From Psychrobacillus soli (lineage in GTDB: Bacteria; Bacillota; Bacilli; Bacillales_A; Planococcaceae), in NCBI RefSeq assembly GCF_006861775.1, contig NZ_VDGG01000006.1:1-64000 (forward strand): a stretch of DNA of 64,000 bases. The letters run 5' to 3'. Below, one piece after another: positions 1,841 to 27,390 of the stretch; positions within the stretch are counted from its first letter, which is position 1, and the number at the start of each line of letters is the position of its first letter. The notes beneath the pieces were generated by a model. That model made no database searches and was not told the origin of the DNA. It saw only the letters and a list, made by a program, of their open reading frames with translations. Made by a program: the position numbers and the translations under genes.

Positions 1841-1873
1841 ACTTGCCTGAATCCCCTCAGGCAAGCTTTTTTA
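1841..1873. terminator. Bidirectional terminator between DUF3243 unit and bioY
   Basis: The arms CTTGCCTGA and TCAGGCAAG form a GC-rich stem with A-rich and T-rich flanks on both sides. It serves the rightward small genes and the leftward bioY gene, whose stop codon overlaps it. Confidence 0.85.
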
Positions 1874-2410
1874 TATTAGTTTTGCGGCAACTAAGCGATT
1901 TCTTATGAGAATCCCTATAATCGCAGCTACGATTGCTTTTACTAGATCCGGCAAAATAAAAGGAATCATGCCTCCTTTAAATGCTCCATTCCAAGGTAAA
2001 TCGGCAGCTACTTTCAACCAAATGGACCCTAGAACTAAAATAATCAATACAGCAATCATATTCGCGATAATTGCTTGTACTTTTGTATGTCCGAAATTCT
2101 CTAAATACCACCCAATAAATAATGCAGCAGGAATAATAGCGACAATATAGCCTCCAGTTGGACCTAACACAACTCCAAATCCGCCTTTCATCCCTGCAAA
2201 TACAGGAATACCGATAACCCCCATCAACACGTACACTGCAACAGCAAGGGCACCGTATTTTGCCCCTAAAATGTTTGCTGTTAACATTACCGCTATCGTC
2301 ATTAACGTAAATGGTACCGGCGGAATATTAATTATTATCTGTGCAGCAACTGCTATAATTGCAGCAAATAATGCAGCTACAATCATCATTTTTAAACGTT
2401 CATTTCTCAT
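1871..2410 (-). CDS. bioY: Biotin transporter substrate-binding subunit BioY
   Basis: BioY is the membrane S component that captures biotin for an energy-coupling factor (ECF) transporter. The 179-residue protein has about six hydrophobic segments and the family signature around residues 50-95 (ILGAKYGALAVAVYVLMG, then GGFGVVLGPTGGYI). It stands alone between two terminators, so it would rely on a shared ECF core encoded elsewhere or at 20.1-22.5 kb. GGGGGAAA precedes the ATG. A perfect BirA-type operator lies just upstream (2431-2465), so expression should fall when biotin is plentiful. A second bioY occurs at 26716-27267. Confidence 0.93.
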   Translation of the reverse strand: MRNERLKMMIVAALFAAIIAVAAQIIINIPPVPFTLMTIAVMLTANILGAKYGALAVAVYVLMGVIGIPVFAGMKGGFGVVLGPTGGYIVAIIPAALFIGWYLENFGHTKVQAIIANMIAVLIILVLGSIWLKVAADLPWNGAFKGGMIPFILPDLVKAIVAAIIGILIRNRLVAAKLI

Positions 2411-12163: not shown

Positions 12164-13525
12164 TTGGAAAAGTATGTTGAATCTGTCGATTATAAAAAAA
12201 TTTGCGATGAATTATATGATGGGATTTATATCGCTGACGAAAAAGGAAAGACTTTATATGTCAACAAATCCTACAGCAGAATAACTGGATTGTCACCAGA
12301 ACTAGTTTTAGGCAAGTATGTAAGTGACCTCATGAAGGAAGGATTATACAAAAATGCAATCACACCTGACATTATTAGAACAAAGAAACCAATTAATGCA
12401 ATGGCAGAAATCCGTACAGGGGTAAAAGTATTACTTTCTGGATCACCTATTTTAGACCATGACGGAAACATAAAAAAAGTCGTTGTTATTAATCGGGATA
12501 TGTCGGATCTATTAGATATGCAAAAGAAACTTGTTGCATCACAAAATGAAATTGAACATCTGAGGAATTTGCAAATAACTAATAAGTTAATAGGAAAAAG
12601 CCATCAAATTCAACCTATAATTCAAATGGTTCACCAAGTAGCCAATTTAGATGTAACTGTTCTTATAACGGGAGAAACAGGGGTAGGCAAAGAAGTTATA
12701 GGAAATGAAATTTATATGAATAGCAATCGACACGGAAAACCTTTTATTAAAGTCAATTGTGCAGCAATCCCTGCTAACCTATTAGAAGCAGAATTGTTTG
12801 GATACGAAGCAGGCTCCTTCACTGGAGCATCTAGTAAAGGGAAAATAGGAATGTTCGAATTGGCGGACAAAGGCACATTGCTTTTAGATGAAATTGGCGA
12901 AATGCCCCTTGAATTACAATCAAAACTTCTTAGGATCATCCAAGAAAAAGAAGTCACACGTGTAGGCGGAACGAAATCAATTAAATTCGATGTTAGGATT
13001 CTTACTGCAACCAATTGTGATTTATATGAACTAGTTAAAAAAGGGAAATTTAGGGAAGATTTGTATTACAGGTTGAATGTATTTCCTATTCATATCCCTC
13101 CTCTACGAGATCGATTTTCAGATATTGAATTATTAACGAAACATTATTTGGACATTTATAACACGAAGTATGGAAAACAAGTATTATTTGATCGTGAAGT
13201 GTATGAGGTGTTCAAAACGTATACATGGCCAGGAAACATAAGAGAGTTGCAAAATGTGGTGGAGCGCTTAGTTATTACGTCAGAAAAACATAAAACAATT
13301 AACGCTGAATTATCCAGAAACATATTAAATATTGAGCCGGAAAGTATAGAAACATCAACTGGTGAGCTAAGTCTTAAAGAAACTGTAGAAAAAGTAGAAA
13401 AGAAGATAATAGAAAAGGCATTAAAAGATTATGGCAGTACAAGAAAAGCAGCTGCAGTTTTAAAAATTAGCCAGTCATCTGTAGTAAAAAAAGCAAAAAA
13501 ATTAGGAATTCAAATAAGTGATTAA
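12164..13525 (+). CDS. Sigma-54-dependent activator: PAS, AAA+, Fis-type HTH
   Basis: This is a bacterial enhancer-binding protein that uses ATP hydrolysis to open promoters bound by sigma-54 (SigL) RNA polymerase. Residues 8-120 form a PAS sensor, 140-370 the AAA+ domain with Walker A (GETGVGKE, near 170), the loop GSFTGA (217-222; the canonical form is GAFTGA, Ser here) and Walker B (LLLDEIGE), and the last 45 residues a Fis-like HTH (TRKAAAVLKISQSSVVKKAKKLGI). The start is a TTG preceded by AAAGGAG at 11 bases. It directly precedes the BKACE operon, which has a -24/-12 promoter, so it should be the local regulator, with the PAS domain sensing a pathway metabolite or redox signal. Confidence 0.93.
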   Translation: MEKYVESVDYKKICDELYDGIYIADEKGKTLYVNKSYSRITGLSPELVLGKYVSDLMKEGLYKNAITPDIIRTKKPINAMAEIRTGVKVLLSGSPILDHDGNIKKVVVINRDMSDLLDMQKKLVASQNEIEHLRNLQITNKLIGKSHQIQPIIQMVHQVANLDVTVLITGETGVGKEVIGNEIYMNSNRHGKPFIKVNCAAIPANLLEAELFGYEAGSFTGASSKGKIGMFELADKGTLLLDEIGEMPLELQSKLLRIIQEKEVTRVGGTKSIKFDVRILTATNCDLYELVKKGKFREDLYYRLNVFPIHIPPLRDRFSDIELLTKHYLDIYNTKYGKQVLFDREVYEVFKTYTWPGNIRELQNVVERLVITSEKHKTINAELSRNILNIEPESIETSTGELSLKETVEKVEKKIIEKALKDYGSTRKAAAVLKISQSSVVKKAKKLGIQISD

Positions 13526-13607
13526 AAAAGGAATCGAAACTGATTCCTTTTTTAATCGCCAACGAACAACAAGAATTGACAGATAACGATGATTTCAATT
13601 AATAATC

Positions 13608-13623
13608 GATGAATTATTTCATC
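13608..13623. promoter_or_regulatory. Predicted enhancer site of the sigma-54 activator
   Basis: GATGAA-TTAT-TTCATC is a perfect inverted repeat 50 bp upstream of the -24 element. A half site GATGAT lies 20 bp further upstream (13588-13593). The same motif occurs three times before the second operon at 19172-19274. Confidence 0.7.
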
Positions 13624-13673
13624 ACCTTATTTTAGACGAGGAAAAAAAGCCTTTCATATTGCGTTTTTTATAG

Positions 13674-13690
13674 TTGGCACACAAATTGCA
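13674..13690 (+). promoter_or_regulatory. Sigma-54 (-24/-12) promoter of the first BKACE operon
   Basis: TTGGCAC-N5-TTGCA matches the -24/-12 consensus TGGCAC-N5-TTGC exactly. The BKACE start codon lies 48 bp downstream. Confidence 0.9.
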
Positions 13691-13737
13691 TTATATAAAG
13701 TGAATAACCAATTATATAGAATGCGAGGGGTAAAGCG

Positions 13738-14568
13738 ATGGAAAAACTAATCATTACTGTGGCACCTACAGGAGCACAAACTACTAGAGAACATACACCA
13801 TATGTGCCGCTATCTCCAAAAGAGATTGCAGATTCAGTCTATGAATCGTGGAAAGAAGGGGCAGCTATTGCCCATATTCATGTTAGAGATTATAAAGGAG
13901 ACAACACACTTGATTTAGACACATATAAAGAAGTAATAGATCGAGTAAAGGATAAATGCGATATTATTCTAAATTTAACAACAGCGGGCGGATTAGGGAA
14001 TAATGAAGAAGCAAGATTGAAAGTTTGCGAGCTAAATCCCGAAATGGCTACATTTGATGCAGGGACTATGAACTTTGGTCAAGACGTTTTTCATAATACT
14101 CCTACTTTTTTAGAAGAATTGGCAGCGATTACAAAAGAACGTCAAATAAAACCGGAAATTGAGATCTTTGATGTTGGAATGATAGATAATGCTTTAAGAA
14201 TTGCGAAAAAAGGGTTATTGGAGAAACCATTTCATTTTCAGTTTGTATTAGGTGTCCATGGTGGCATGGCTGCTACCCCTAAAAATCTAATGTTTTTAGT
14301 AGAAAGCATTCCCAAGGGTTCCACATGGTCAGCAATAGGGGCTAGTAAGGATCAACTAACCATTAATACGATGAGTATACTTTTAGGCGGTCATGTTCGA
14401 GTTGGAATGGAAGACAGTGTGTACTATCAAAAAGGAGAGTTAGCTACTACCAATGCACAATTTGTAAAAAGAATAGTTGAATTGGCTGGCGTTCTAGGAA
14501 GAGAAGTTGCTACACCAGATGAAGCACGGAAAATTTTACAACTATCCAAAAAACTAATCAAGGGGTGA
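13738..14568 (+). CDS. Beta-keto acid cleavage enzyme (BKACE, DUF849), first copy
   Basis: BKACE enzymes condense a beta-keto acid with acetyl-CoA and release acetoacetate plus a new CoA ester; the founding member is Kce (3-keto-5-aminohexanoate cleavage enzyme) of lysine fermentation. The 276-residue protein has the zinc-binding HIHVRD (His46, His48), the TTAGG and FDAGTMN segments, EIFDVGM, and HVRVGMEDS with the conserved Glu. GAGGGG lies seven bases before the ATG. It heads an operon with a PanE-like dehydrogenase and a permease, so the substrate is probably an imported hydroxy acid that is first oxidised to a beta-keto acid. Substrate identity is unknown. Confidence 0.88.
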   Translation: MEKLIITVAPTGAQTTREHTPYVPLSPKEIADSVYESWKEGAAIAHIHVRDYKGDNTLDLDTYKEVIDRVKDKCDIILNLTTAGGLGNNEEARLKVCELNPEMATFDAGTMNFGQDVFHNTPTFLEELAAITKERQIKPEIEIFDVGMIDNALRIAKKGLLEKPFHFQFVLGVHGGMAATPKNLMFLVESIPKGSTWSAIGASKDQLTINTMSILLGGHVRVGMEDSVYYQKGELATTNAQFVKRIVELAGVLGREVATPDEARKILQLSKKLIKG

Positions 14569-14574
14569 CTATTT

Positions 14575-15618
14575 ATGAAAATAGGCGTATTAGGAGTAGG
14601 TTCGCTTGGGACAATTATCGGTGCACTGATCACTAAAGGAGGATATGATGTTGATTTGATTGATATTAATCAACAAAATGTCGATGAACTAAATCAAAAT
14701 GGTGCAAAAATAACAGGATTTTTAGAAGAGACAATTCCTGTAAAAGCTAAACATCCAAACGATTTAACTGGAAAGTATGATGTGATATTCCTTCTTACAA
14801 AGCAAGTTTATACAAAAGATTCATTGGAATCGATTCTACCTTTTTTAAATGACGATAGTGTAGTGTGTACGTTGCAAAACGGAATACCTGAAGAAAACGT
14901 TGCCGCTATCGTTGGAAAGGAAAGAACTATTGGCGGTGTAGTAGGCTTTGGGGCCACTTGGACAGGGCCTGGAGTATCTGAGCTTACAACAGAATTAGAG
15001 GTAGTGAAGAAATATGCTTTTGATATTGGGGAACTTACTGGAGAAACAACCGAAAGATTAAAAACGATCAAAGACATTTTAGAAACGGTTGGTTATTGCG
15101 AAATGGTTACTAATATTAATGGAATGAAATGGTCTAAGCTGTTAATGAATGCCACCTTTAGTGGGATGTCTGCAGCATTAGGGTGCACATTCGGAGAGGT
15201 ATTATATAACCAAGATGCCATGAGAAGCCTGGCAAACATCGCAGATGAAACGATTAAAGTAGCTCGAGCAAATAATGTTCAGCTAGTAGAAATGCAAGGG
15301 AAAGACTTTGAGTTTTTAGAGTTAGAAAAGCAAGAAGATATCGCTGAAAAAATGGCATTTTACGAAGAAGTGTGGGGACCTCACGCAAACCTCAAGGCTA
15401 GTATGTTGCAAGATTTAGAGAAAGGTAGAAAAACAGAAATCGATTTTATTAATGGCCATGTTTCGAAAAAAGGAAGAGAGAAAAACATTCCTACTCCTTA
15501 TAATGATTTGGTTTGTACCCTTGTAAAAAAATCAGAAGAAACAAAAGAGCTGCCTGTTTTTGCAGAAAATATGAAGGAATTTAATCTAGTAAACATGGAG
15601 CAAAAAGCAATCAATTAA
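14575..15618 (+). CDS. Ketopantoate reductase-like dehydrogenase (ApbA/PanE family)
   Basis: The 347-residue protein has the Rossmann motif GVGSLG at residues 7-12, the NGIPEE motif near 100, and the C-terminal helical domain of the PanE/ApbA family (LLMNATFSGMSAALGCTFGEVL). It is longer than typical PanE (about 300) and sits between a BKACE and a permease gene, seven bases after the former. It is therefore more likely a pathway-specific oxidoreductase that makes or reduces the keto acid than the vitamin B5 enzyme. Which reaction direction and substrate apply cannot be seen. Confidence 0.78.
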   Translation: MKIGVLGVGSLGTIIGALITKGGYDVDLIDINQQNVDELNQNGAKITGFLEETIPVKAKHPNDLTGKYDVIFLLTKQVYTKDSLESILPFLNDDSVVCTLQNGIPEENVAAIVGKERTIGGVVGFGATWTGPGVSELTTELEVVKKYAFDIGELTGETTERLKTIKDILETVGYCEMVTNINGMKWSKLLMNATFSGMSAALGCTFGEVLYNQDAMRSLANIADETIKVARANNVQLVEMQGKDFEFLELEKQEDIAEKMAFYEEVWGPHANLKASMLQDLEKGRKTEIDFINGHVSKKGREKNIPTPYNDLVCTLVKKSEETKELPVFAENMKEFNLVNMEQKAIN

Positions 15619-15638
15619 TAGAAACAATATGTAGGAAA

Positions 15639-15658
15639 GAGCGGGAATAATCCCGCTC
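15639..15658 (+). other. Perfect hairpin within the BKACE operon
   Basis: GAGCGGGA-ATAA-TCCCGCTC is a perfect 8-bp stem between the dehydrogenase and permease genes. No T-run follows, so it is more likely a processing or mRNA-stability element than a full terminator. Confidence 0.55.
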
Positions 15659-15693
15659 TCAAGCAAGGCAAATGAAAAAGGACGGTGCAGCCA

Positions 15694-17082
15694 ATGTTTA
15701 TCGAAGTTTTTGCTATTCTTCTCTCATTAGGGTTACTTATATTTTTAGCCTATCGTGGTTTTCCAGTCATAGTCATTGCCCCCATTGTAACTTTACTAGC
15801 AGTTGCTCTATCCGGCGCTGCTCTATTACCTAGTTATACAGAAGTTTATATGCCGAATTTAGCAAACTATATTAAAACATGGTTCCCTATTTTTATTTTA
15901 GGTGCGGTATTCGGAAAGTTAATGGAGTTAAACGGAGCGACGACCGCAATTGCGAAAAAGATTATGGACATCTTTGGTATTAAAAGAGCGCTTCTGGCAA
16001 CCATACTCGCTTGTTCTATTTTGACTTATGGTGGAGTTTCCCTGTTCGTTGTAGTTTTTGCAGTATATCCATTTGCCGCAGCAGTTTTTCGCGAGGCAGG
16101 TATACCTAAGAGGTTCATTCCTGCAGTAATTGTTTTGGGTGGATGTACATATACAATGGATGCTTTTCCAGGTACACCTCAAATCCAAAATATTATTCCG
16201 ACAAATTATTTTGGAACGGATGCTTATGCTGCCCCTATAACAGGACTTGTTGCAGGATCAGTCATTTTCTTGCTAGGCTATCTTTGGTTATTAAGAAGAG
16301 TAAATAAAGCAAGTTTAGCTGGAGAAGGTTATGGGGAAGGTCACACAAACGAACCAGTTATCAATCCAGATGAAAAGGTTATCAATTTTTGGGTAGCAAT
16401 TATCCCTTTGGTAGTTGTTGTCATTCTTAACTTTGTATTTACTAAAACAAGTTTTGCAGTTAATCACTGGTATACTCCTGAATTTTTGGAAGAAACTTTT
16501 AATGTTCAAAACTTGAGCAGTTTGAGTTCCACATGGGCACTTATTGTTGCGCTTGTTTTAGGGATTATTGCTGCGTTATTTATCAATATAAAATCATTTA
16601 CTCCTTCCAAGCTCTCTTCCGGACTCACTTTGGCTGCAAGCGGTTCCTTATTAGCTGTATTCAATGTGGCTTCAGAAGTAGGTTTTGGAAATGTTGTGAA
16701 AACACTACCAGGATTTGAAGTAATTAGGAATGCGATTACCGGAGTCTCTTCCCATCCATTAATATCCGAGTCTATCGCCGTTAACGTACTAGCTGGTGTT
16801 GTTGGATCCGCATCAGGTGGGATGTCGATTGCTCTTGAAGTAATGGGACAACATTATCTTGACTTAGCGAATTCCATGGGGATTGATCCAGAATTTCTTC
16901 ACAGGGTTGCCTCTATGTCAGCAGGCGGCTTAGACTCACTGCCACATAGTGGTGCGACGATAACTATTCTTGCCATTTGTGGTCTTACTCATCGCCAAGC
17001 ATATGGGGATATTTTCGTAATTACAATTATGAAGGCACTTGTAGCGTTTAGTACTGCTGTGATACTTTCTTTAATCGTTTAA
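15694..17082 (+). CDS. GntP-family permease
   Basis: This 12-or-more-segment inner membrane protein resembles GntP/gluconate-type proton symporters, which take up hydroxy acids such as gluconate and 3-hydroxybutyrate. Family motifs are FILGAVFGKLMELNGA, FPGTPQIQNIIPTNYFGT and ALEVMGQHYLDLANSMGIDPEFLHRVASMSAGGLDSLPHSG. The reading frame begins at a GTG at 15685, but AAAAGGA is too close to it; the ATG at 15694 has better spacing. Co-expression with BKACE and dehydrogenase genes indicates that it imports the pathway substrate. Confidence 0.85.
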   Translation: MFIEVFAILLSLGLLIFLAYRGFPVIVIAPIVTLLAVALSGAALLPSYTEVYMPNLANYIKTWFPIFILGAVFGKLMELNGATTAIAKKIMDIFGIKRALLATILACSILTYGGVSLFVVVFAVYPFAAAVFREAGIPKRFIPAVIVLGGCTYTMDAFPGTPQIQNIIPTNYFGTDAYAAPITGLVAGSVIFLLGYLWLLRRVNKASLAGEGYGEGHTNEPVINPDEKVINFWVAIIPLVVVVILNFVFTKTSFAVNHWYTPEFLEETFNVQNLSSLSSTWALIVALVLGIIAALFINIKSFTPSKLSSGLTLAASGSLLAVFNVASEVGFGNVVKTLPGFEVIRNAITGVSSHPLISESIAVNVLAGVVGSASGGMSIALEVMGQHYLDLANSMGIDPEFLHRVASMSAGGLDSLPHSGATITILAICGLTHRQAYGDIFVITIMKALVAFSTAVILSLIV

Positions 17083-17101
17083 TTTGATAGATTACAATCA
17101 G

Positions 17102-17141
17102 AAAGGGTGTCCAAATATACAGATTTGGACACCCTTTTCTT
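17102..17141 (+). terminator. Terminator of the first BKACE operon
   Basis: AAAGGGTGTCCAAAT and ATTTGGACACCCTTT form a long perfect stem with T-rich 3' flank. Confidence 0.88.
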
Positions 17142-17225
17142 TATATTTCCTATTAAACATGTGATAGATAATTGGACGAAGAAGCCAACCAAGTTGGGAA
17201 AGCGGTCCTAACAAAAACAATAAAA

Positions 17226-17270
17226 GATAGTATCTAAAATGGATTACGATATTCCAAATACTATCTCTCA
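17226..17270 (-). terminator. Weak possible terminator of the second BKACE operon
   Basis: GATAGTAT and ATACTATC arms enclose a 24-nt loop; leftward reading reaches a T-rich stretch (TTTTATTGTTTTT). The stem is AT-rich, so the call is tentative. Confidence 0.4.
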
Positions 17271-17280
17271 TAGATCCCTA

Positions 17281-18228
17281 TCATTCCATATAACATCTGG
17301 ATGCTTTTAGTTGGTGAATAAGCCTTCTATTAAATTGTTTTTTAATCTCTGCACTTTGCTTTTCATCGTACTCAAAAAAACCTTTTCCTGTTTTAATGCC
17401 AAGCTCTCCATTAGATATTTTGCTTCTTAATAGTTCATTGGATTGTTGACGATTGTCCATTACCTTTAATAAATTATCCCCCACTGTACACCAAATATCG
17501 AGTCCACCCATATCAGCAATTTCCAGCTGACCTGCCGTGGCATAACGGAAAGCTGGACCGAATTTCAGTGCACGGTCCACATCCTCGTAAGAAGCAATAC
17601 CTTGCTCAATAATCGAAAATACTTCCCTTGCGATACCTTGTTGAATACGATTCGCCACTAGGCCCGGCACATCCTTTAATACTTTAACGCATTGCTTATT
17701 AATCGATTGATAGAGCTTGTCGACTTTTTCATAAATATGTAGTGGCATATTGCCAAAGAAGGACAGCTCCACAATTGGCATAATATGGGCCGGATTGTAC
17801 CAATGATTGATCATCATACGTTGTTTACGCTCTTCGCTCACGAGCTCCATCATACTTTCCAAAGCTAAACTAGATGTATTACTTGCTAAAATCGTATGCT
17901 CAGGACAATAGGCATCTAATTGTTTAAAAAGTTTTTGTTTTAGCTCTATAATTTCAGGAGCCGCTTCAATCACATAATCGCATTGTGAAACAGCTTCACA
18001 TAAATCATTGAAATAACTTATTTTTTGGAGCGCTTTCAAAACAATAGCTTCTTCGATCACTTTTTCATCACTTAATAAACGAAGCTCTCGTTCTATATCC
18101 CCCGCAACACTGTTTACTCGTACCTCGTCTACATCGTATAGACGGATTTCATATCCGCCAATAGCAAAGCTTATTGCAATACTATGTCCCATTGTGCCAG
18201 CACCGATAACACCAATAGTCTTTATCAT
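17281..18228 (-). CDS. 3-hydroxyacyl-CoA dehydrogenase family protein (beta-hydroxy acid dehydrogenase)
   Basis: The 315-residue NAD-dependent dehydrogenase has GVIGAGTMGHSIA at residues 6-18, EAAPE, the NTSSL segment and a catalytic histidine in the motif NHWYNPAHIMPIVE, which differs from the HFFNPxxxMxLVE of 3-hydroxybutyryl-CoA dehydrogenases. Free-acid members of the family, such as L-carnitine and L-gulonate dehydrogenases, also depart from it. In carnitine degradation such an enzyme makes 3-dehydrocarnitine, which a BKACE then cleaves. Here it lies 17 bases downstream of a BKACE gene, so an analogous step is likely. Substrate is not determined. Confidence 0.83.
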   Translation of the reverse strand: MIKTIGVIGAGTMGHSIAISFAIGGYEIRLYDVDEVRVNSVAGDIERELRLLSDEKVIEEAIVLKALQKISYFNDLCEAVSQCDYVIEAAPEIIELKQKLFKQLDAYCPEHTILASNTSSLALESMMELVSEERKQRMMINHWYNPAHIMPIVELSFFGNMPLHIYEKVDKLYQSINKQCVKVLKDVPGLVANRIQQGIAREVFSIIEQGIASYEDVDRALKFGPAFRYATAGQLEIADMGGLDIWCTVGDNLLKVMDNRQQSNELLRSKISNGELGIKTGKGFFEYDEKQSAEIKKQFNRRLIHQLKASRCYME

Positions 18229-18245
18229 TTCCCCGCACCCTCCCC

Positions 18246-19070
18246 TTAGTTCAACCCTAAAATTTGTCGTGCTTCCTCAGGAGTTGCGACTTCTTTATTT
18301 AATTCATGAATAATTCGAACGGCTCTTTCCACAAATTCGGCATTCGATTTTGCCATCTGCCCTTTTGCATAATAAATATTATCTTCCATCCCCACTCGAA
18401 TATGGCCACCCAGTGCTAATGTCGTATATAGAATCGGTAAATGACCTTGCCCAATTCCAAAAGCAGACCATGTACAATTTTCAGGAAGTAAACTTTTTAA
18501 ATAGACGAGGTTTTCAACAGTAGCTGCTGTACCACCTGGTGCACCGAGTACAAATTGATAATGTGTAGGTTCTGCGACCAGTCCTTTTTTTACATAATAA
18601 AGGGTATTGTATAGCATACCTGCATCAAAAACTTCAATTTCTGGTTTCACATTGTTATCTATCATCACTTGTCCAAGCTTTTCTAAAAAACTTGGTGTAT
18701 TTAAGAAAATTGTTTTATGCATCCAATTCATACTACCAGCGTCAAACGATGCCATCTCAGGTTTTAGTTCAATTAGATGTGCCATACGTGTCTCATCCGT
18801 CGCATTCAAATCTCCTGAGGTTGTTAAATTTAAGATAATATCGCATTCTCGTTCACGAACAAGCTCTACCGTTTCTTTAAATCTTTCTTTATCCATCGTA
18901 CCGTTACCTTCTTCATCAATCATATGCAAATGCGCGATCGCAGCACCTGCTTTCCACACGTTAATTACATCATCCGCGATTTCTTTAGGTGTCAAAGGAA
19001 TATTGGGGTTTTTATCCTTCGCTGGAAATGCACCTGTCAAAGCTGCTGTAATAATTACTTTGTCTTTCAT
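18246..19070 (-). CDS. Beta-keto acid cleavage enzyme (BKACE, DUF849), second copy
   Basis: This is a paralog of the gene at 13738 with the same zinc motif core (AHLH), TTSGD, FDAGSMN, EVFDAGM and HIRVGMEDN. The residue after the metal motif differs (HLHMID against HIHVRD), so the substrate pocket probably does too. The frame starts at a GTG at 19079, but AAGGAG is eight bases before the ATG at 19070. It leads an operon with the hydroxyacyl dehydrogenase, driven by a sigma-54 promoter at 19106-19122. It may act on a different substrate of the same route or on the product of the other dehydrogenase. Confidence 0.87.
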   Translation of the reverse strand: MKDKVIITAALTGAFPAKDKNPNIPLTPKEIADDVINVWKAGAAIAHLHMIDEEGNGTMDKERFKETVELVRERECDIILNLTTSGDLNATDETRMAHLIELKPEMASFDAGSMNWMHKTIFLNTPSFLEKLGQVMIDNNVKPEIEVFDAGMLYNTLYYVKKGLVAEPTHYQFVLGAPGGTAATVENLVYLKSLLPENCTWSAFGIGQGHLPILYTTLALGGHIRVGMEDNIYYAKGQMAKSNAEFVERAVRIIHELNKEVATPEEARQILGLN

Positions 19071-19105
19071 TAATATCACTCCTTCTTTTTATTACTTATC
19101 TTTAT

Positions 19106-19775: not shown

Positions 19776-20084
19776 TCATTCAAAATATATCGGATAATGC
19801 GCACTACAACGCTCGTTAAAAGTTGCCTGGCAATGCGGACAGCTGGCTGTATGCATATACGCAAGAATCGTTAACTCTTTCTGACAACTCCCACAAAGAA
19901 TAGCCAGTTCATCAAACTGCTCCTTTTGCCAACGTTCGATTTTGTGATCAGCATCTTCCTCATGGCATTTATAGCAAGGATAGTAGTGATTACAGCACTT
20001 AAATTTTATGGCAATAATATCTTTTTCTGTGTGATAGTGCGTACAGCGCGTTTCATTGTCCACGACAGCACCGTATACTTTCAT
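19776..20084 (-). CDS. CHY-type zinc-finger protein
   Basis: The 102-residue cytoplasmic protein has the CHY zinc-finger pattern: TRCTHYHTEKDIIAIKFKCCNHYYPCYKCHEEDADH, then CGSCQ and CPHC. Several zinc ions are expected. The function in bacteria is unknown; eukaryotic CHY domains occur in ubiquitin ligases. AGGGGGG precedes the ATG. It abuts ecfT with no gap and is the last gene of the operon that begins with bioY. Confidence 0.85.
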   Translation of the reverse strand: MKVYGAVVDNETRCTHYHTEKDIIAIKFKCCNHYYPCYKCHEEDADHKIERWQKEQFDELAILCGSCQKELTILAYMHTASCPHCQATFNERCSAHYPIYFE

Positions 20085-20888
20085 CTATAACCCCCCTAAC
20101 CGTATAATAATCACCGTTATTACAAACAAAACAGCGATCATCCCTACAACATAATCTATTTGCTGAAATTGCAATAGCTTATACGCAGTTCTTCCTTTTC
20201 CCTTGCCATAAGCACGCGCATCAATTGCATATGTCAACTGCTCCGCACGCTGAATAGTAGTGAACAGCAAAGGAATTAATATTGGAATATAAGCGAGCAT
20301 ACGCTTTACTAACGGTAAATGAACGATATCATGCCCTCTCGCTTTTTGAGCGAGTATAATCCGGTCTAGCTCCTGCAAAATCGTTGGGATAAAACGAATC
20401 GCAATAACAATCATTAAAGAAAACTGTTCGACTGGCACATGGAATTTAGATAGCGGTGCTAATAGTTTTTCAAGACCACTTGCTAATTCTAAAGGCTTTG
20501 TTGTTAATGTTAATATGGAAGCTAGTAAAACAAGTAAAATAATACGCCAGACGAAGCGAACCCCATTTTGTAGCCCTTCCGCAGTCACATCGATAAAAGA
20601 CCAAGACCAAATGACATTCCCTTTGGTGAGCAAAACATTGTAAACGAAAGTAAACGTCAAAATAAATAAAATGGGCTTTAACCCTTTCATAAAAACAGGA
20701 AATGGTATTTTCGAAAGCATCAAAATACCAAAGACGAAAAGAGACACAATCGTAAAACTAGTAGCAGTTTTAAGCATTAGAAAACTAAGCATAATGATAA
20801 ACAAACTTAGAATCTTCGTCCTTGGATCAAGTCGGTGAAACACGGAATTCGTCTCCATGTACTGACCTATTAATATGGTATCAGACAT
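20085..20888 (-). CDS. ecfT: ECF transporter transmembrane component EcfT
   Basis: EcfT couples ATP hydrolysis by EcfA1/EcfA2 to vitamin release from S components. The protein has several membrane segments and the two coupling-helix motifs with Ala-Arg-small (QKARGHD near residue 165 and DARAYGKG near 210) that contact the ATPases. The reading frame extends to 20930, but AAGGAG eight bases before the ATG at 20888 fixes the start, overlapping ecfA2 by 8 nt. Most Bacillales keep one shared ecfAAT set in the ribosomal protein region; this set is joined to bioY, suggesting a dedicated or additional biotin system. Confidence 0.9.
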   Translation of the reverse strand: MSDTILIGQYMETNSVFHRLDPRTKILSLFIIMLSFLMLKTATSFTIVSLFVFGILMLSKIPFPVFMKGLKPILFILTFTFVYNVLLTKGNVIWSWSFIDVTAEGLQNGVRFVWRIILLVLLASILTLTTKPLELASGLEKLLAPLSKFHVPVEQFSLMIVIAIRFIPTILQELDRIILAQKARGHDIVHLPLVKRMLAYIPILIPLLFTTIQRAEQLTYAIDARAYGKGKGRTAYKLLQFQQIDYVVGMIAVLFVITVIIIRLGGL

Positions 20889-21738
20889 TTTGAAGTCTCC
20901 TTGCTTTCCAAACTGGTATAACCTTTTCAAAGATTTCCTGTTCCCTACAACTGGAGACTTGAATCTTCTCCCCAGTTAGTTCCTCTACTAGCTTTAATAA
21001 TTGTACAGATTCTGGTAGCGACAATCCTATTTTCTCTAGTAGATGGGATTGTTCCAAAAATAATGTACGAGTATCCAATTGCCCTATTAGACAACCTTCA
21101 TGAAATACGATTACCTCATCTGAGTACTCCGCGACATCTTCCATTTGATGGGACACGAATATAAGCGTCCGGTTTACTTGCTGCTGCCATTTTTTAAGCA
21201 ATTGTAATAACGCGACTTTACTGATTGGATCCAGACCTGCAGTTGGTTCATCCACGATGAGCAGTTTCGGGTTCATCATTAATACCGAGGCAATAGCTAC
21301 ACGGCGTTTCAGACCACCACTTAATTGGAATGGAGCTAATGGTAAAATGTCTTCTGACAGGCCAAGTTGCGGTAAAATTTTTGATATGCTCTTTGTTATT
21401 TGCTGATTAGACATGCCCTGTTGCTTCGGTGCAAAAGCAAGCTCTTTGAATACGGTCGTTTCAAATAGTTGGTGCTCTGGGTATTGAAAAACAAAGCCGA
21501 TTTCCGGAATAACCTTTAGCTGCCCCTTAGCATCTCTTTTAACAGGTTGTTGATCGATTAAATAGTCCCCATCTATATGAGGAATCAATCCTTTGAGCAC
21601 TTGGACGAACGTCGACTTTCCTGCGCCTGTTTGACCTATAACGGAAATCCACTTACCTTCTTCCATTGTGCAACTTACATTTCTTAATGCCGTTTGACGA
21701 GAATAGTTCACACTCACATTGTTTAATTGATAGACCAT
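20881..21738 (-). CDS. ecfA2: ECF transporter ATPase EcfA2
   Basis: This ABC ATPase has Walker A GQTGAGKST, Q-loop FQYPEHQLFE, signature LSGGLKRR (degenerate at the fifth position compared with LSGGQ), Walker B LLIVDEPT and the H-loop SHQMEDV. It pairs with EcfA1 as the asymmetric ATPase dimer. The start is placed at the ATG at 21738, after AAGAAGGGA, rather than at 21762. It overlaps ecfA1 by 16 nt. Confidence 0.9.
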   Translation of the reverse strand: MVYQLNNVSVNYSRQTALRNVSCTMEEGKWISVIGQTGAGKSTFVQVLKGLIPHIDGDYLIDQQPVKRDAKGQLKVIPEIGFVFQYPEHQLFETTVFKELAFAPKQQGMSNQQITKSISKILPQLGLSEDILPLAPFQLSGGLKRRVAIASVLMMNPKLLIVDEPTAGLDPISKVALLQLLKKWQQQVNRTLIFVSHQMEDVAEYSDEVIVFHEGCLIGQLDTRTLFLEQSHLLEKIGLSLPESVQLLKLVEELTGEKIQVSSCREQEIFEKVIPVWKARRLQNV

Positions 21739-22523
21739 TGTGAACGAATCCCTTCTTTCCAATTTACTGTGAACGGTGGGTCTAGTTGGAGTGTTTTACG
21801 TAAACGGACAGCAAACGGTAATTGTAATTGATATTTCTCTACAGACATTGTTTCAAAAAAAACGAAAGGATCGCCATCGAATTCCAGATGTCCTTCATGT
21901 ATGAGTAAAATACGCTCGGCAGACAGCACTTCCTCCATATGATGCGTAATATGAATAATTGTCATGCCTTGGTCATGCAGTTCATGCATAATAGATAGCA
22001 CTTGCTTTCTTCCTTGTGGATCAAGCATCGAAGTAGCCTCGTCAAAAATAATCATTTTTGGTTGCATCGCCAATATTGCAGCAATAGCTACCCTTTGCTT
22101 TTGACCGCCTGATAATTGGTGCGGCATCGCTTCTAAATATTCCTCCATCTGAACAGCGCGCAAGGCAGTATCCACTCTCCCCCGCATTTCTTCCCTTGGG
22201 ACGCGAATATTTTGCAAGCCAAAAAGCACTTCATCCATAACAGTTGTTGTAATGAATTGATCCTCTGGATTTTGAAAGACGAAGCCTACTTGTTGATGAA
22301 TTTTCATTAGTTCATCAGGATTTGTCGTATCTAATTGTTGAAACTTTACCGTTCCTTTCTTAGGTAAAAGCAATCCGTCGATTAACTTTGCAACAGTGGA
22401 TTTCCCACTCCCATTTGCTCCCACAATCGACACAAATTCCCCCGCTTGAATCGTAAAGTTTACATCGTTTATGATGGTCTGACCTTTTTTATAATAAAAA
22501 TGAACATGATCGAAAGTAAGCAT
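21723..22523 (-). CDS. ecfA1: ECF transporter ATPase EcfA1
   Basis: The 266-residue ATPase has Walker A GANGSGKST, Q-loop FQNPEDQF, signature LSGGQKQR, Walker B MIIFDEAT and HITHHMEEV. FQNPEDQF is characteristic of EcfA/CbiO proteins. It follows the SDR gene without a gap, so it is clearly in the same operon as the fatty-acyl type enzymes. Confidence 0.92.
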   Translation of the reverse strand: MLTFDHVHFYYKKGQTIINDVNFTIQAGEFVSIVGANGSGKSTVAKLIDGLLLPKKGTVKFQQLDTTNPDELMKIHQQVGFVFQNPEDQFITTTVMDEVLFGLQNIRVPREEMRGRVDTALRAVQMEEYLEAMPHQLSGGQKQRVAIAAILAMQPKMIIFDEATSMLDPQGRKQVLSIMHELHDQGMTIIHITHHMEEVLSAERILLIHEGHLEFDGDPFVFFETMSVEKYQLQLPFAVRLRKTLQLDPPFTVNWKEGIRSQWSIN

Positions 22524-23345
22524 CTATTTACTTCCCTTTCGACTATGCCATGTAGTAAAAAATTCATCTATACTATTTTCCGAATATGCAGCAACCGGCT
22601 TTTCCCACTTTGTCACTTTTGAACCGTTAACACCAAATATTTCACCCGTTAAATCCGGATCTTGCTGTGCAAGAAGCGCCACTACAAAGCGAGCGACATC
22701 ATCCGCCTCTCCCACTTTCCAAAAATCCGGAAATGGCTCGTTTTTACTGGCATATTTGTTCTTTACATGTTCAATTACAGGTCTAGTCATATCCGTTAAA
22801 GCAGCTGGCGAAATAGCATTCACTCGAATGTTATCGCGCTTTAGTTCCGCTGCAAGCGTCCATGTCATACCGAGTATTCCGGCTTTCGCCGCACTATAAT
22901 TCACTTGACCAATAGAGCCCCCGAGTCCTGCAGTAGAAGTCATTAATAGAATGTCACCACCACTTACTTGCATATGTGGAAGCACTCGCTGAATGCTATA
23001 AAAAGCACCATTCAAATGGACATTTACTACAGATCTCCACTCTTCATCTGTCATCTTTATACATTTTTGATCATGCAAATTACCTGCATTATGTACGAGC
23101 ACATCTATGCGACCAAATTGAGCCATAACTGCATCAACCATTTTAGTAACTGCAATTGGATCAGCAATATTCCCAACATAACCTTTCGCATCACCGCCAG
23201 CTCGATCAATATCTCGCACAACCTCGTCTACTAACTCCTGTTTAGTTCCATTCACGACAATCTGATAATCTGATTGTCCAAGATGCACGGCGATACTTCG
23301 CCCAATCCCCCTCGTAGAACCCGTAACGATCGCTACTTTTTTCAT
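22524..23345 (-). CDS. Short-chain dehydrogenase/reductase, probable 3-oxoacyl-CoA/ACP reductase
   Basis: This classical SDR has TGSTRGIG at residues 8-15, NAGN near 88, catalytic Ser in MTSTAGLGG, YSAAK near 155, and a longer C-terminal tail (about 30 residues) than FabG. Its position beside two MaoC-type proteins recalls the multifunctional enzyme type 2 of beta-oxidation, where the same domains reduce or oxidise 3-hydroxyacyl-CoA. In this operon it would be the ketoreductase after the thiolase step, or the dehydrogenase in the oxidative direction. AGGAG is nine bases before the ATG. Confidence 0.85.
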   Translation of the reverse strand: MKKVAIVTGSTRGIGRSIAVHLGQSDYQIVVNGTKQELVDEVVRDIDRAGGDAKGYVGNIADPIAVTKMVDAVMAQFGRIDVLVHNAGNLHDQKCIKMTDEEWRSVVNVHLNGAFYSIQRVLPHMQVSGGDILLMTSTAGLGGSIGQVNYSAAKAGILGMTWTLAAELKRDNIRVNAISPAALTDMTRPVIEHVKNKYASKNEPFPDFWKVGEADDVARFVVALLAQQDPDLTGEIFGVNGSKVTKWEKPVAAYSENSIDEFFTTWHSRKGSK

Positions 23346-23686
23346 CGTTGCAACTCCTTCACTAAAAAAGTCCCTGCAGCAATCTTATCGCCAGTTTCCG
23401 TCGTAACCGTCACTTCCACACTATCCTCCACGCGCTCAAAATTAAAAGTGGCTACCGTATCCACCAAAAGCGGCTTTTGAAATTTCATGTTATATGCTGT
23501 AACCCACTGCGTAAGATGCTCTTCTATGTACAAAGATTGTGCTAACCCCATAATATACATGCCGTGGGCAAGAGGACGCTCGAATCCAGCTTTTCTCGCC
23601 GCATCCACATCCAGATGAATTGCCGCTTTATCTTTTGAAACAGCTGCATACTTTTCGATTGCTTCAACTGTTATATGTTTTTTCAT
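23342..23686 (-). CDS. MaoC-like (R)-specific enoyl-CoA hydratase
   Basis: The protein is a single hot-dog fold with the hydratase-2 motif: SKDKAAIHLD-x-DAARKAGFERPLAHGMYIMGLA, where Asp and His are the catalytic pair. It hydrates trans-2-enoyl-CoA or dehydrates (R)-3-hydroxyacyl-CoA. The frame is open to 23695; the ATG at 23686 after AGGTGA is preferred. It overlaps the preceding MaoC N-type gene by 23 nt; such pairs often form heterodimers in which only this subunit has the active site. Confidence 0.83.
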   Translation of the reverse strand: MKKHITVEAIEKYAAVSKDKAAIHLDVDAARKAGFERPLAHGMYIMGLAQSLYIEEHLTQWVTAYNMKFQKPLLVDTVATFNFERVEDSVEVTVTTETGDKIAAGTFLVKELQR

Positions 23687-24062
23687 GGGGGTCACCTACT
23701 TGGATTAATACTGTTTCCGCTGTAACAATGAGATCATCATTATATTTACAAACGAGCGTATGTGTTAAAAAAGTAAGCACTCCCTGTTTTCCTACCTTTT
23801 TCTCCACATTCGTTAACGTTAACTCACAATCTAGCACCATTTCTGCTATGATTGGTGTTTCATATGTAAAGTCCTGTGTGCCATGAATCAATACTCCAGC
23901 TTCTTTGAGCCAAGGAATATCGAACTCCTGCCAAAAAACAATAGGCATTGTGGAAGGGGCAATGTATTTACCATCGACTATTTGTAAAGGAGCGTCTAAA
24001 CTTTGTGCATACTGCGAAATCCACTCCGACGTCACATACAGCTGTTGTTGCACCCTGTTCAT
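23664..24062 (-). CDS. MaoC N-terminal-type dehydratase subunit (FAS1-like)
   Basis: The 132-residue hot-dog protein resembles the MaoC_dehydrat_N domain found as the partner half of bacterial beta-hydroxyacyl dehydratases (as in HadAB of mycobacteria). Visible parts are PIVFWQEFDIPWLKEAGVLIHGTQDFTYETPI and the strand-rich C-terminus. It lacks the D-x4-H catalytic pair. Start and stop overlap with both neighbours, giving strong evidence of a coupled operon. It would bind the acyl chain in a dimer with the next gene product. Confidence 0.78.
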   Translation of the reverse strand: MNRVQQQLYVTSEWISQYAQSLDAPLQIVDGKYIAPSTMPIVFWQEFDIPWLKEAGVLIHGTQDFTYETPIIAEMVLDCELTLTNVEKKVGKQGVLTFLTHTLVCKYNDDLIVTAETVLIQVGDPHEKTYNS

Positions 24063-25210
24063 TCAACTGCCTCTACAAGCGTTGCAAGTCCTATCCCACC
24101 GCCAATGCCCAGTGTAGCAAGTCCTTTTTTATAAGGTTTATGCAGCATTTCAGCACATAATCTTGTCATTAAAATTGCACCCGATGCACCGTATGGATGA
24201 CCAATTGCTAATGCACCGCCTCCACGATTTACTTTTTCCAAAGGAATATGAAGTTCCTTTAACGAAGCTAATACTTGCGAGGCAAACGCTTCGTTAAACT
24301 CTACTATATCTAAATCGGCTACCGTCAGTTGTTGCCGCTTTAACACTTTTTGTACAGCCTGAATCGGACCAATTCCTAAATAGTTTGGATCCACACCAGC
24401 CGCTTGCGCATCTACTACACGTAAAATCGTCTGAAGATTTAGCTCTTCACATTTCTCGCGAGACATGATTAAAATAAGCGCTGCCCCGTCATTTAGAGGA
24501 CAGGCATTTCCCGCAGTAACCGTGCCATTTTCCTGGAACACAGGTAACAATTTTCGCAACTTTTCCATACTCGTATTCGCTCTTGGGCATTCATCTTCGG
24601 TAATCCATTTCCCATTAACTTGAAGCGGTACAATTTCCTGCTCAAATCGTCCGGTTTGCTGAGAATGAATGGCTTTTCGATGACTTTCCAAAGCAAACTG
24701 ATCTTGTTCTTCTCTCGAAATGACGTATTTTTTTGCCACGTTCTCGGCCGCAACTCCCATATCTGGATCACCGTAACTACTCGGCGTAAACTTAGCGCGT
24801 GTATATAGCTCTGGTACACCCATAAGATTTTGTGGCTTAGCCATTTTCCAAGGAGCCCGACTCGTACTTTCAACGCCTCCCGCTAAATAAACCTCCCCAG
24901 CGCCACTTTGAATTAATCTAGCAGCTATATTAATCGCCTCTAAGCCTGAGCCACATTGACGGTCAACAGTAACGCCAGGAACGGTGACAGGAAGACCCGC
25001 TTCTAGTGCGGAAACTCTCGCAATATTGCCACCCGGCCCTACTACATTACCAATAATCACATCATCGATTATGTCTTTTGGCAAATTCGTTTCCGCTACA
25101 ATATGCTTGATAAGCGGTGCTAGTAATTTCTCTGGTTCAAGTAGGCTTAATACGCCACCCATCTTCCCTATTGGCGTGCGTTTTGCCATGACAATCACAG
25201 CTTCCGTCAT
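24059..25210 (-). CDS. Thiolase (YhfS-like acetyl-CoA acyltransferase)
   Basis: The 383-residue protein has the nucleophile motif DRQCGSG (Cys86) and the histidine motif GGGALAIGHPYGASG (His338). At the second catalytic cysteine of ordinary thiolases (CxGGG near the C-terminus) it reads GIGGGIG, so the acid/base cysteine is Gly (residue 368). The order bioY - acyl-CoA ligase - thiolase is that of yhfU-yhfT-yhfS in B. subtilis. It may condense an acyl-CoA with acetyl-CoA or cleave a 3-ketoacyl-CoA; the missing cysteine makes the direction and even the activity uncertain. It overlaps both neighbours by 4 nt. Confidence 0.88.
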   Translation of the reverse strand: MTEAVIVMAKRTPIGKMGGVLSLLEPEKLLAPLIKHIVAETNLPKDIIDDVIIGNVVGPGGNIARVSALEAGLPVTVPGVTVDRQCGSGLEAINIAARLIQSGAGEVYLAGGVESTSRAPWKMAKPQNLMGVPELYTRAKFTPSSYGDPDMGVAAENVAKKYVISREEQDQFALESHRKAIHSQQTGRFEQEIVPLQVNGKWITEDECPRANTSMEKLRKLLPVFQENGTVTAGNACPLNDGAALILIMSREKCEELNLQTILRVVDAQAAGVDPNYLGIGPIQAVQKVLKRQQLTVADLDIVEFNEAFASQVLASLKELHIPLEKVNRGGGALAIGHPYGASGAILMTRLCAEMLHKPYKKGLATLGIGGGIGLATLVEAVE

Positions 25211-26688
25211 ACCATCACCTTCTCCATATAGTCTTTCATTGCCTGACGTGCCAATTTCCCACTACTCGTGTAAATAAAATCATCCACCGTTATAAGTTGC
25301 TTCGGCACTTTATAACTGGCTAAATAACTTCGACAATACTCTTTCACTTCTTCTATTGATAGACGTTGTTGCCCGTCCCATTTTATAAGTGCCGTTACTC
25401 GTTCTCCCCAGTATGCATCTGGTATCCCAAGCACCATCACTTCTCGAATAGCTGAATGTGTCCGCAACACAGACTCTACTTCTTCTGGGTAAATATTAAG
25501 ACCACCAGATACCAACATATTTTTCACACGACCTGCCAAATACAAATATCCCTCTTCGTCCATGGACATATAATCCCCTAGTAGGAGCCAGCCGTCCCGA
25601 AAGGCCGCTTTCGTCTCTTCAGGTAAATGATGATACCCTAAAAACATCATGTCACTTCGAATACAAAGTTGCCCGATTGTTCCGGACGGCACTTCCTGAA
25701 ACTGTTCATCGCGAATCGATACTTGAACGCCGGGAAAAGGCTTCCCTAATGAATTGGGCTTTTCTTTCGCATTTACGTCTAAATAACTTATATAACTTGC
25801 TTCGGATGAGCCATAGAATTCATATAACCTTGCTTCACCAAACACTTCCTTCGCTCTTTTGATGGAAGCCTCCGACCACTTTGCTCCTGAGGAAACAAGC
25901 GCTTGGATATGCACCTGCCCTGGAGTAACCTGTTCAAGTATCGGTTCAATCATCGTTGGAACTACAAACAATATCGCATTGGAATGCTGACTGCAAATCC
26001 TTAAAACTTCCTTCGCACTAAATTTACGAACGATATGAAAAGTTGCTCCACTATATAGACTCTGCATTAAAGCAAACAATGACAATGATTGGACGAACGG
26101 ACCTGGCGCTAAAATATGCTCCATCTCGTCGAATTGGAATGCTTCATTCGTCGCGGCAAAACTCTTGATCCACGACAAATGAGTGCGCATATACCCTTTT
26201 GGGATACCTGTTGTGCCCGATGTAAAACCAATAAATAATAACTCGTTTGTATCATCCATTTTAGCTTCCGGTTTTAAATGCGCTATCCAGTTAGCATAGG
26301 AACCTGTTTCATCTGCAGAAAAGGTCAGCATTTGCATCTCTCTATCTCGTAAATTTAGATTTGATAATAGTGCATCCTCTACAAAAATCTTTTTAGGTTT
26401 ACACTGCTGTAAAATGGTCGTCAATTCATTTGTACTCCATTTTGGATCTAGTGGGATAGGGACACATCCTGCATAAATAGTTCCAAGAAAAACTTCTACA
26501 AATTCGATACGATTCGATGATAAAATAGCGATATTTTCATGCTTGAAACCATTTCGATATAACCCGTTAGCTACCTTTTTCATAGACTGTACAAGTTCTG
26601 AGTATGTACGGGATTCTTGTCCATCCGTTAAGGCAATTTTATTAGGGTGCCGTGTTGCATTATGTAGTAAGGTTTCTACTAGATTCAT
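25207..26688 (-). CDS. Acyl-CoA synthetase (AMP-forming), YhfT-like
   Basis: The 493-residue ligase has the AMP-binding motif TSGTTGIPKGYMRTH (about residue 163), YEFYGSSEASY, the GDYMSMDEEGYLYLAGRVKNM hinge region and the C-terminal catalytic lysine context SSGKLARQAM. It activates a carboxylic acid to its CoA thioester. Its place between bioY and the thiolase matches B. subtilis yhfT, a gene reported in the BirA regulon. A natural hypothesis is activation of a biotin precursor such as a dicarboxylic acid, but acyl specificity cannot be read from the sequence. Confidence 0.9.
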   Translation of the reverse strand: MNLVETLLHNATRHPNKIALTDGQESRTYSELVQSMKKVANGLYRNGFKHENIAILSSNRIEFVEVFLGTIYAGCVPIPLDPKWSTNELTTILQQCKPKKIFVEDALLSNLNLRDREMQMLTFSADETGSYANWIAHLKPEAKMDDTNELLFIGFTSGTTGIPKGYMRTHLSWIKSFAATNEAFQFDEMEHILAPGPFVQSLSLFALMQSLYSGATFHIVRKFSAKEVLRICSQHSNAILFVVPTMIEPILEQVTPGQVHIQALVSSGAKWSEASIKRAKEVFGEARLYEFYGSSEASYISYLDVNAKEKPNSLGKPFPGVQVSIRDEQFQEVPSGTIGQLCIRSDMMFLGYHHLPEETKAAFRDGWLLLGDYMSMDEEGYLYLAGRVKNMLVSGGLNIYPEEVESVLRTHSAIREVMVLGIPDAYWGERVTALIKWDGQQRLSIEEVKEYCRSYLASYKVPKQLITVDDFIYTSSGKLARQAMKDYMEKVMV

Positions 26689-26715
26689 ATCTCATCATCC
26701 CAGTTTATCGTTTTT

Positions 26716-27267
26716 TTAGTTATTAACTTTTTGCTCTATTGGACTAACGGCTTTTATTTGCATGACTATAATAGCTACAATAATGGCTTTTATTAAATCT
26801 CCAGGTAAAAATGCCGTAGCACCTACAAGTCCTGCCCAAATAGACGTATTGGTGATAATCGCCATTACAGGTGCACCAATCAAACTAACAAGTACAACGC
26901 CAAAAATAAAATTGATAACGATTACTTTCCATATCTTTAACGTTGACCAGACTTTTTCAATAGCAAGTCCGATACAAAATGCGGCAATTGGCCAACTTAA
27001 AATATAACCAGCAGATGGACCAACTAACGGAGCAAGCCCTCCCCTTCCACCTGACAATAAAGGTAAACCTAAAGCGACTAATACGATAAATAAAACCAAA
27101 CTAAGCGCTCCCGTTTTCTTCCCTAAAAAACTTCCCGCAAGCATAACACCAAGTGTTTGTGCTGTGATTGGCACTGGTATAAAGCCCAGTGGAATTGGCG
27201 GGATCATGCCCAAAACTCCTATTAATGCAGCAAATAATGCAGCGAATACCATCTCTTTTGTTTTCAT
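26716..27267 (-). CDS. bioY: Biotin transporter substrate-binding subunit BioY, second copy
   Basis: This 183-residue membrane protein has the BioY hallmarks PVPITAQTLGVMLAGSFLGKKTGALSLVLFI and GGRGGLAPLVGPSAGYILSWP. It differs clearly from the other BioY (1871-2410) and resembles YhfU. It is the first gene of a nine- or ten-gene minus-strand unit that runs to 19776 and contains its own EcfA1-EcfA2-EcfT set. Upstream are a sigma-A-like promoter (TTGAAA, 16 nt, TATATT near the start) and a possible BirA operator at 27359-27390. Confidence 0.92.
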   Translation of the reverse strand: MKTKEMVFAALFAALIGVLGMIPPIPLGFIPVPITAQTLGVMLAGSFLGKKTGALSLVLFIVLVALGLPLLSGGRGGLAPLVGPSAGYILSWPIAAFCIGLAIEKVWSTLKIWKVIVINFIFGVVLVSLIGAPVMAIITNTSIWAGLVGATAFLPGDLIKAIIVAIIVMQIKAVSPIEQKVNN

Positions 27268-27358
27268 TTTCTTCCCCCGTTAATATAACAAATAATTACA
27301 AATTTTCAAAAGAAGTCGACATCTATGAATAAATAAATCATAGCTTGAAACTCCATTT

Positions 27359-27390
27359 GTGTAAACACATTTTTTTAAATCGGTTAACTC
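27359..27390. promoter_or_regulatory. Possible BirA operator of the second bioY operon
   Basis: GTGTAAAC and GTTAACTC are imperfect inverted half sites with a 16-bp spacer. The right half plus flank (GTTAACTCATTTT) is identical to that of the perfect operator at 2456-2468. It lies about 92 bp upstream of the start codon. Confidence 0.5.

Follow-up and report, generated by a model that had tools for sequence, protein, structure and literature searches.

A conserved ten-gene bioY operon of Psychrobacillus soli with a BirA-type operator and a predicted CoA-dependent chain-extension set

The yhfU-yhfT-yhfS unit of Bacillus subtilis joins a bioY gene, an acyl-coenzyme A (CoA) ligase gene and yhfS under the control of BirA, which binds the operator only in the presence of biotin and ATP (PMC4016012). 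Staphylococcus aureus likewise has a biotin-repressed ligase/thiolase pair, yhfS-yhfT (PMC6391492, PMC7235819), whose repression by BirA is biotin-dependent (PMC6391492). The two genes have thus been known as BirA targets for years, with no function given in the literature consulted. We analyzed a stretch of 64,000 nucleotides from Psychrobacillus soli (contig NZ_VDGG01000006.1, positions 1 to 64,000, assembly GCF_006861775.1; hereafter the window, contig C58 of the 4.2 Mb genome G000) that carries an extended relative of these units. Ten co-oriented minus-strand genes (19776-27267), most of them overlapping, abutting or lying a few bases from their neighbors, form one tight operon. To judge from its published operon name, yhfUTS of B. 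subtilis has neither the hydratase gene pair, the short-chain dehydrogenase/reductase (SDR) gene, the energy-coupling factor (ECF) module and the CHY gene of this operon nor the fabK gene of some of its relatives; the S. aureus pair, unlike the window operon, comprises two genes only and lies apart from bioY.

The features described below are consistent with a BirA-repressed unit for CoA-dependent two-carbon extension that works outside de novo biotin synthesis and perhaps restores shortened biotin side chains, a conclusion that we put forward as tentative. The bioY-yhfT-yhfS unit with its BirA control (B. subtilis, PMC4016012) and the yhfS-yhfT pair (S. aureus, PMC6391492, PMC7235819) are already known. 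The open-licence literature searched gave no account of the extended operon, of the FabK homologue that goes with it, of the operon's persistence in genomes unable to make biotin or of the cysteine swap in YhfS; any of these may have been described elsewhere.

Gene content and conservation of the operon

The operon opens with bioY (26716-27267), encoding a YhfU-like, biotin-type S component (PF02632, 3.6e-35, 121 bits against a cut-off of 25), followed by genes for a YhfT-like acyl-CoA ligase (25207-26688) and a YhfS-like condensing enzyme of thiolase fold (24059-25210; Pfam Thiolase_N/C). Both AMP-binding domains are present in the ligase (PF00501, AMP-binding, 7.9e-69, and PF13193), whose best NCBIfam match is the acyl-CoA synthetase PRK07638 (444 bits, under the cut-off of 518). 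The next two genes encode hotdog subunits: hydA (23664-24062), a non-catalytic-looking FAS1_DH/HadA-like protein (FAS1_DH_region, 5.7e-06) with no Asp-x4-His motif of the hydB type in the aligned rows, and hydB (23342-23695), a MaoC/HadB-like protein (MaoC, 2.6e-16) whose Asp22-x4-His27 pair is kept in 8/8 rows. Mycobacterial HadAB-type dehydratases likewise have two hotdog subunits with the catalytic Asp-His in one only; scores against HadAB are weak, however (21-38 bits against cut-offs of 180-350), and the substrate here is presumed to be bound to CoA, not to acyl carrier protein (ACP). An SDR gene (22524-23345; adh_short, 1.1e-47) for a FabG/PhaB-like 3-oxoacyl reductase with the YSAAK motif kept precedes the ATPase genes ecfA1 (21723-22523; ABC_tran; TIGR04520, 325 bits, above cut-off) and ecfA2 (20881-21738; ABC_tran; best NCBIfam match TIGR04521; ATG at 21738, within a longer open reading frame (ORF) from a TTG at 21762). 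Next come ecfT (20085-20888; CbiQ family, PF02361, 3.5e-39; ATG at 20888) and, as last gene, one for a CHY zinc-finger protein (19776-20084; PF05495, zf-CHY, 7.3e-13), a position conserved in relatives. With BioY as S component, two EcfA ATPases and EcfT, one operon holds a complete BioY-type ECF transporter, a predicted biotin importer.

An earlier interpretation of this DNA, made from the letters alone (the sequence-only reading), had proposed a minus-strand operon of bioY, ligase, thiolase, two-subunit MaoC-type hydratase, SDR and EcfA1-EcfA2-EcfT, with the ECF module dedicated to it. All of these genes are present, co-oriented and supported by Pfam, and Pfam and NCBIfam matches bear out the ECF module; the CHY gene is a member that it had not named. 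It had also seen in the enzymes a CoA-dependent chain-extension set, and by family a ligase, a condensing enzyme, a reductase and a dehydratase are indeed predicted. Condensing enzyme, SDR reductase and R-type hydratase likewise make up chain extension of the reversed beta-oxidation or PhaA-PhaB-PhaJ type; the window operon differs in a condensing enzyme without Cys378 (see below) and in its added ligase, biotin transporter and BirA-type box.

A hydA search covered 261 genomes of the order, all of the listed ones in one family. The query alone also matches many unrelated MaoC pairs in this family, which were set apart by score and neighborhood. High-scoring hydA genes occur in 12 of the 261 genomes, 11 of which carry the complete operon in the same order and in differing surroundings (G000, G117, G147, G198 (P. 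lasiicapitis; locus L011), G199 (locus L012), G051, G005, G042, G024, G162 and G165); in the twelfth, G082, only bioY, yhfT, yhfS, hydA and hydB remain (locus L055). Besides Psychrobacillus, three further groups of the family share the ten-gene order, and its recurrence in other genera amid unrelated surroundings indicates that the block is not a chance assembly. In G147 the hydA ORF is intact, an apparent stop being due to an alignment that extends beyond the gene end. Between the window operon and that of P. lasiicapitis, dN/dS is 0.04-0.21 for every gene; the operon enzymes are therefore under purifying selection in that lineage.

A class-wide search with the thiolase located the ligase-to-ecfT block in a second family as well, in four of the genomes examined (L179-L182). 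This order is thus present in at least 15 genomes that represent several genera of Bacilli; in most of them bioY and a BirA-type box go with it. Shorter versions in the class are bioY-yhfT-yhfS-SDR, bioY-yhfT-yhfS, fabK-yhfS-yhfT, and ligase plus YhfS alone; the small genomes bearing the last are probably Staphylococcus. A Vut_1 (YhhQ-like) transporter gene precedes the block instead of bioY in L179 (5449-6162) and L180 (5246-5959). Three other loci (L185-L187) show a conserved order of bioY-ecfA1-ecfA2-ecfT, an adenine-deaminase-like amidohydrolase gene, yhfT, yhfS, SDR, and genes for a glycosyltransferase, an MFS-like transporter, a GT2-like protein and an acyl-CoA dehydrogenase; no BirA-type box was seen before their bioY. 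The P. soli genome itself has paralogous SDR-hydA-hydB-thiolase clusters with canonical thiolases on contigs C25 (L056) and C41 (L057), the former near an acyl-CoA dehydrogenase-like gene.

Biotin control and biotin synthesis genes

Upstream of bioY lies a BirA-type operator, GTTAAC-N16-GTTTAC (27361-27388, minus strand), conserved in the family loci, whose right half takes in the greater part of the -35 element of a predicted sigma-A promoter (TTTACA-N17-TATGAT, 27337-27365, minus strand; spacing counted by hand). A box without mismatch is present in 11 of the 12 family operon loci (10/11 besides the window; L048 read by eye), the exception being L055. Shuffled upstream regions of the box-bearing family loci never matched as well as the real box (0/100 each). 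Further loci with an exact or relaxed box before bioY include L181, L182, L184, L188-L191, L193 and L195. Taken alone, the pattern shows no enrichment across the P. soli genome (14 matches against 27 for a reversed control), so the case for the box rests on position and conservation. Genome-wide, matches are convincing only at three bioY promoters: that of the operon; that of a second bioY of the window, outside the operon and of the same predicted regulon (1871-2410, minus strand; box at 2435-2461); and that of a third bioY adjoining bioB (G000 C1:183456-183893). As a further BirA target in this genome, a box on C77 was rejected on account of the unrelated genes that it adjoins, and a second target encoding an enoyl reductase was discarded, the convincing boxes being those at the three bioY promoters alone and the loci examined from this genome showing no FabK homologue. 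Rodionov et al. (Genome Research, 2002) are said to have assigned these genes to the biotin regulon. By analogy with B. subtilis and S. aureus, BirA probably represses the operon, and the BirA control proposed in the sequence-only reading gains from a box that overlies the promoter. The conservation that it had suggested checking extends to both the block and the box.

The leader also contains a conserved 14-bp palindrome, AGATGTCGACTTCT (27311-27324, minus strand), possibly a second operator or a short upstream ORF. In two families, this sequence or close relatives with GTCGAC separate the promoter from bioY (L011, L012, L047, L048 and L181).

Profile searches of the P. soli genome found no bioW, no bioD and no bioA above cut-off (best score 356 bits, cut-off 405; true ones reach about 570-580). 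The only strong bioF-like protein (406.6 bits, cut-off 426) looks, to judge from its sequence, like a glycine C-acetyltransferase. bioB is present next to the third bioY, and its occurrence without bioA and bioD suggests use of dethiobiotin. Both bioA and bioD are absent from 8 of the 11 family genomes with the complete operon (G000, G117, G147, G198, G199, G051, G005 and G042), three of which, all Psychrobacillus, lack bioB as well (G147, G198 and G199); bioA, bioB and bioD accompany the operon in G024, G162 and G165. In the other family, none of the four genomes with the full set (G262, G433, G413 and G593) has bioD either, which makes 12 of 15 without it. We claim no correlation, as Psychrobacillus genomes without the operon also mostly lack these biosynthesis genes.

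These absences bear on the general function favored in the sequence-only reading, in which glutaryl-CoA would be extended to pimeloyl-CoA for BioF. The carbon arithmetic is correct, the BirA-type box is present and three carriers have bioA, bioB and bioD; but where bioA, bioD and, in three Psychrobacillus genomes, bioB are absent, pimeloyl-CoA cannot become biotin, and even so purifying selection maintains the operon. In the carriers lacking bioA and bioD, among them the window's own genome, the route is refuted unless non-homologous replacements of both exist, and it is conceivable only in the few with the downstream genes; as a general explanation we regard it as very improbable. The absence of bioW, proposed as a check, was observed in the P. 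soli genome but is uninformative: with the downstream genes absent too, it would not argue for a replacement route. The BioZ pathway (glutaryl-CoA to 3-ketopimeloyl-ACP; PMC11089781) is likewise a biotin-linked two-carbon extension; BioZ, however, resembles FabH and supplies the de novo pathway, whereas carriers of the window-type operon mostly lack the de novo genes. Salvage, which had also been raised as a possibility, fits the retention of the operon without those genes.

An altered thiolase and a FabK-type partner

In the thiolase of Clostridium acetobutylicum the catalytic residues include Cys88 and Cys378 (PMC4595758), the latter being the base that takes the proton in ordinary thiolases (PMC3406046). 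Alignment of the window's YhfS with this enzyme places Gly368 at Cys378 and Cys237 at Ser247, while the nucleophile (Cys86), the Asn of the NEAF motif (Asn306) and the His of the GHP motif (His338) are kept. The base cysteine of canonical thiolases (CxG motif) is replaced by Gly in all YhfS rows read, and Cys237 occurs together with Gly368 in 43/43 of the YhfS rows listed. The two changes go together in a deduplicated set of 70 Bacilli thiolase rows (69 different): 39 combine Cys237 with Gly368, 31 combine Ser with Cys, and none is mixed. A single branch with 100/100 support splits the YhfS rows from the canonical thiolases, and on its YhfS side Leu/Ile of the GHP loop is Tyr/Phe. "Thiolase", the term of the sequence-only reading, therefore holds for the fold and for the conserved Cys, Asn and His; with Cys378 changed to Gly the protein is not an ordinary thiolase. 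The simplest reading of the alignment is that the catalytic base cysteine would have been relocated from position 378 to 247, where the serine of the canonical enzyme presumably faces the CoA-binding site. Palmer et al. (1991) reportedly saw a strong loss of condensation in a C378G mutant thiolase. Alternatively, YhfS may carry out a decarboxylating condensation with malonyl-CoA, like ketoacyl synthases, which have no Cys378. An AlphaFold model of YhfS (mean pLDDT, the predicted local distance difference test score, 66.9; low near the active loops) was not used.

In L179-L182 the operon ends, in place of the CHY gene, with a gene for a 323-328 amino acid homologue of FabK. The best NCBIfam match of these proteins is TIGR03151 (E 1e-82 to 2e-88), below the equivalog cut-off (L179: E 1e-82, 278 bits against 453), in an NMO/FabK superfamily that is mixed and labelled NMO in Pfam; the best PDB match is FabK of C. 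difficile (7l00). Proteins of the same kind head a fabK-yhfS-yhfT unit in L192, L194, L197, L198 and L210, and in L194 a BirA-type box without mismatch lies 46 bp upstream of fabK. We infer that these homologues are enoyl reductases. By family assignment, the operons of L179-L182 then hold a complete set of ligase, condensing enzyme, ketoreductase, dehydratase and enoyl reductase, and the combination of the last three points to synthesis rather than breakdown. That only an enoyl reductase is missing, as the sequence-only reading had it, is true of the window operon; in the related operons the FabK homologue is there. None was found in the window, in the operon or in the other loci examined from the P. 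soli genome, the rest of which was not searched. In L194, the fabK-yhfS-yhfT unit is flanked by two 4HBT-family thioesterase-like genes (6994-7488 and 11261-11641).

Possible roles under biotin scarcity

With ample biotin, BirA-biotinyl-AMP would sit on the operator over the -35 element and keep the operon off; at low biotin the cell would gain both a further BioY transporter, driven by an ECF motor of its own, and a CoA-dependent line for chain extension. In this line a free carboxylic acid would be activated by YhfT as the CoA thioester, YhfS would condense the acyl-CoA with a two-carbon donor, the SDR would reduce the 3-oxo group and HydAB would take off water. An enoyl reductase, FabK-like in the related operons and drawn from elsewhere in the window's genome, would close the cycle. 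The scheme starts from observed gene content, conservation, operator sequence, absent de novo genes, residue swap and FabK linkage, and adds to them a presumed repression by BirA, direction, enzyme activities and substrate. Reductive extension outside the de novo biotin pathway seems to us probable on balance. For the substrate, a shortened biotin vitamer is the simplest choice, the extended product being useful only under biotin shortage and in cells without de novo synthesis, and we hold it as a possibility somewhat short of even; the likeliest such substrate would be bisnorbiotin, giving biotinyl-CoA. Bisnorbiotin does occur in nature: in human urine it accounts for 13-23% of biotin compounds (PMC9106636). 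The most specific version, in which imported bisnorbiotin or tetranorbiotin is re-extended by a CoA-bound reductive cycle through a new thiolase-fold class with its base cysteine moved from 378 to 247, is rather unlikely to be correct in every part.

Several points weigh against a role in biotin repair. The enzyme roles are assigned by homology, and nothing in the sequences points to a particular substrate. The window operon has neither an enoyl reductase nor a thioesterase, and units of the B. subtilis and Staphylococcus type consist of ligase and YhfS only, so that the other steps must come from elsewhere. If YhfS is malonyl-CoA-dependent, it relies on a biotin enzyme. Finally, L179 and L180 have the enzyme and ECF set without an adjacent bioY or a visible BirA-type box, which loosens the link to biotin.

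The main rival is a biotin-sparing fatty-acid bypass: as acetyl-CoA carboxylase fails and malonyl-CoA drops, the operon would elongate fatty acyl-CoA from acetyl-CoA by reversed beta-oxidation, with YhfT recruiting outside fatty acids. The enzyme set and the BirA timing suit this idea, YhfT is nearest to general acyl-CoA synthetases, relatives have a FabK-like reductase, and independence from bioA, bioB and bioD would be expected. However, no ACP or acyltransferase is present, and Gram-positive bacteria build their phospholipids from acyl-ACP and acyl-phosphate, not from acyl-CoA. Moreover, every YhfS lacks Cys378, the base for acetyl-CoA condensation in ordinary thiolases (PMC3406046), which weighs against plain acetyl-CoA condensation; we consider the bypass unlikely. 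Much the same low weight goes to the extension of an acid structurally unrelated to biotin and needed only when biotin-dependent carboxylases fail, such as an anaplerotic or branched acid. BirA control is as much a readout of the state of the carboxylases as of the vitamin, and L179 and L180 would fit, but most loci with the set also have bioY or a BirA-type box. Lower still we place an oxidative role, in side-chain breakdown or detoxification of biotin analogues taken up through BioY, such as antivitamins that are longer or unsaturated. Enzymes of these classes can also work oxidatively, and in L185-L187 the unit includes genes for an amidohydrolase and an acyl-CoA dehydrogenase; yet the window operon has no acyl-CoA dehydrogenase, FabK is a reductase, and repression by biotin would mean degrading during biotin scarcity. 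For the same reason, repression by biotin, breakdown of biotin itself is unlikely.

For most carriers, then, the pimelate supply first supposed gives way to a likely full cycle of reductive chain extension that is linked to control by biotin, and a thiolase-fold family with an altered catalytic base is indicated. Should the substrate be shortened biotin, the operon would encode a vitamin-repair pathway, of which we found no account in the same literature, with a bearing on the ecology of biotin auxotrophs, on microbial biotin assays and on the understanding of staphylococcal biotin-regulated genes.

Beside the operon (12164-19079) the window contains two DUF849/BKACE-like genes and genes for a 3-hydroxyacyl-CoA dehydrogenase-like protein, a carboxylate transporter-like protein and a sigma-54 regulator-like protein, named by sequence alone. 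The pair formed by the second BKACE gene and the dehydrogenase gene sits immediately downstream of the operon in G117 as well.

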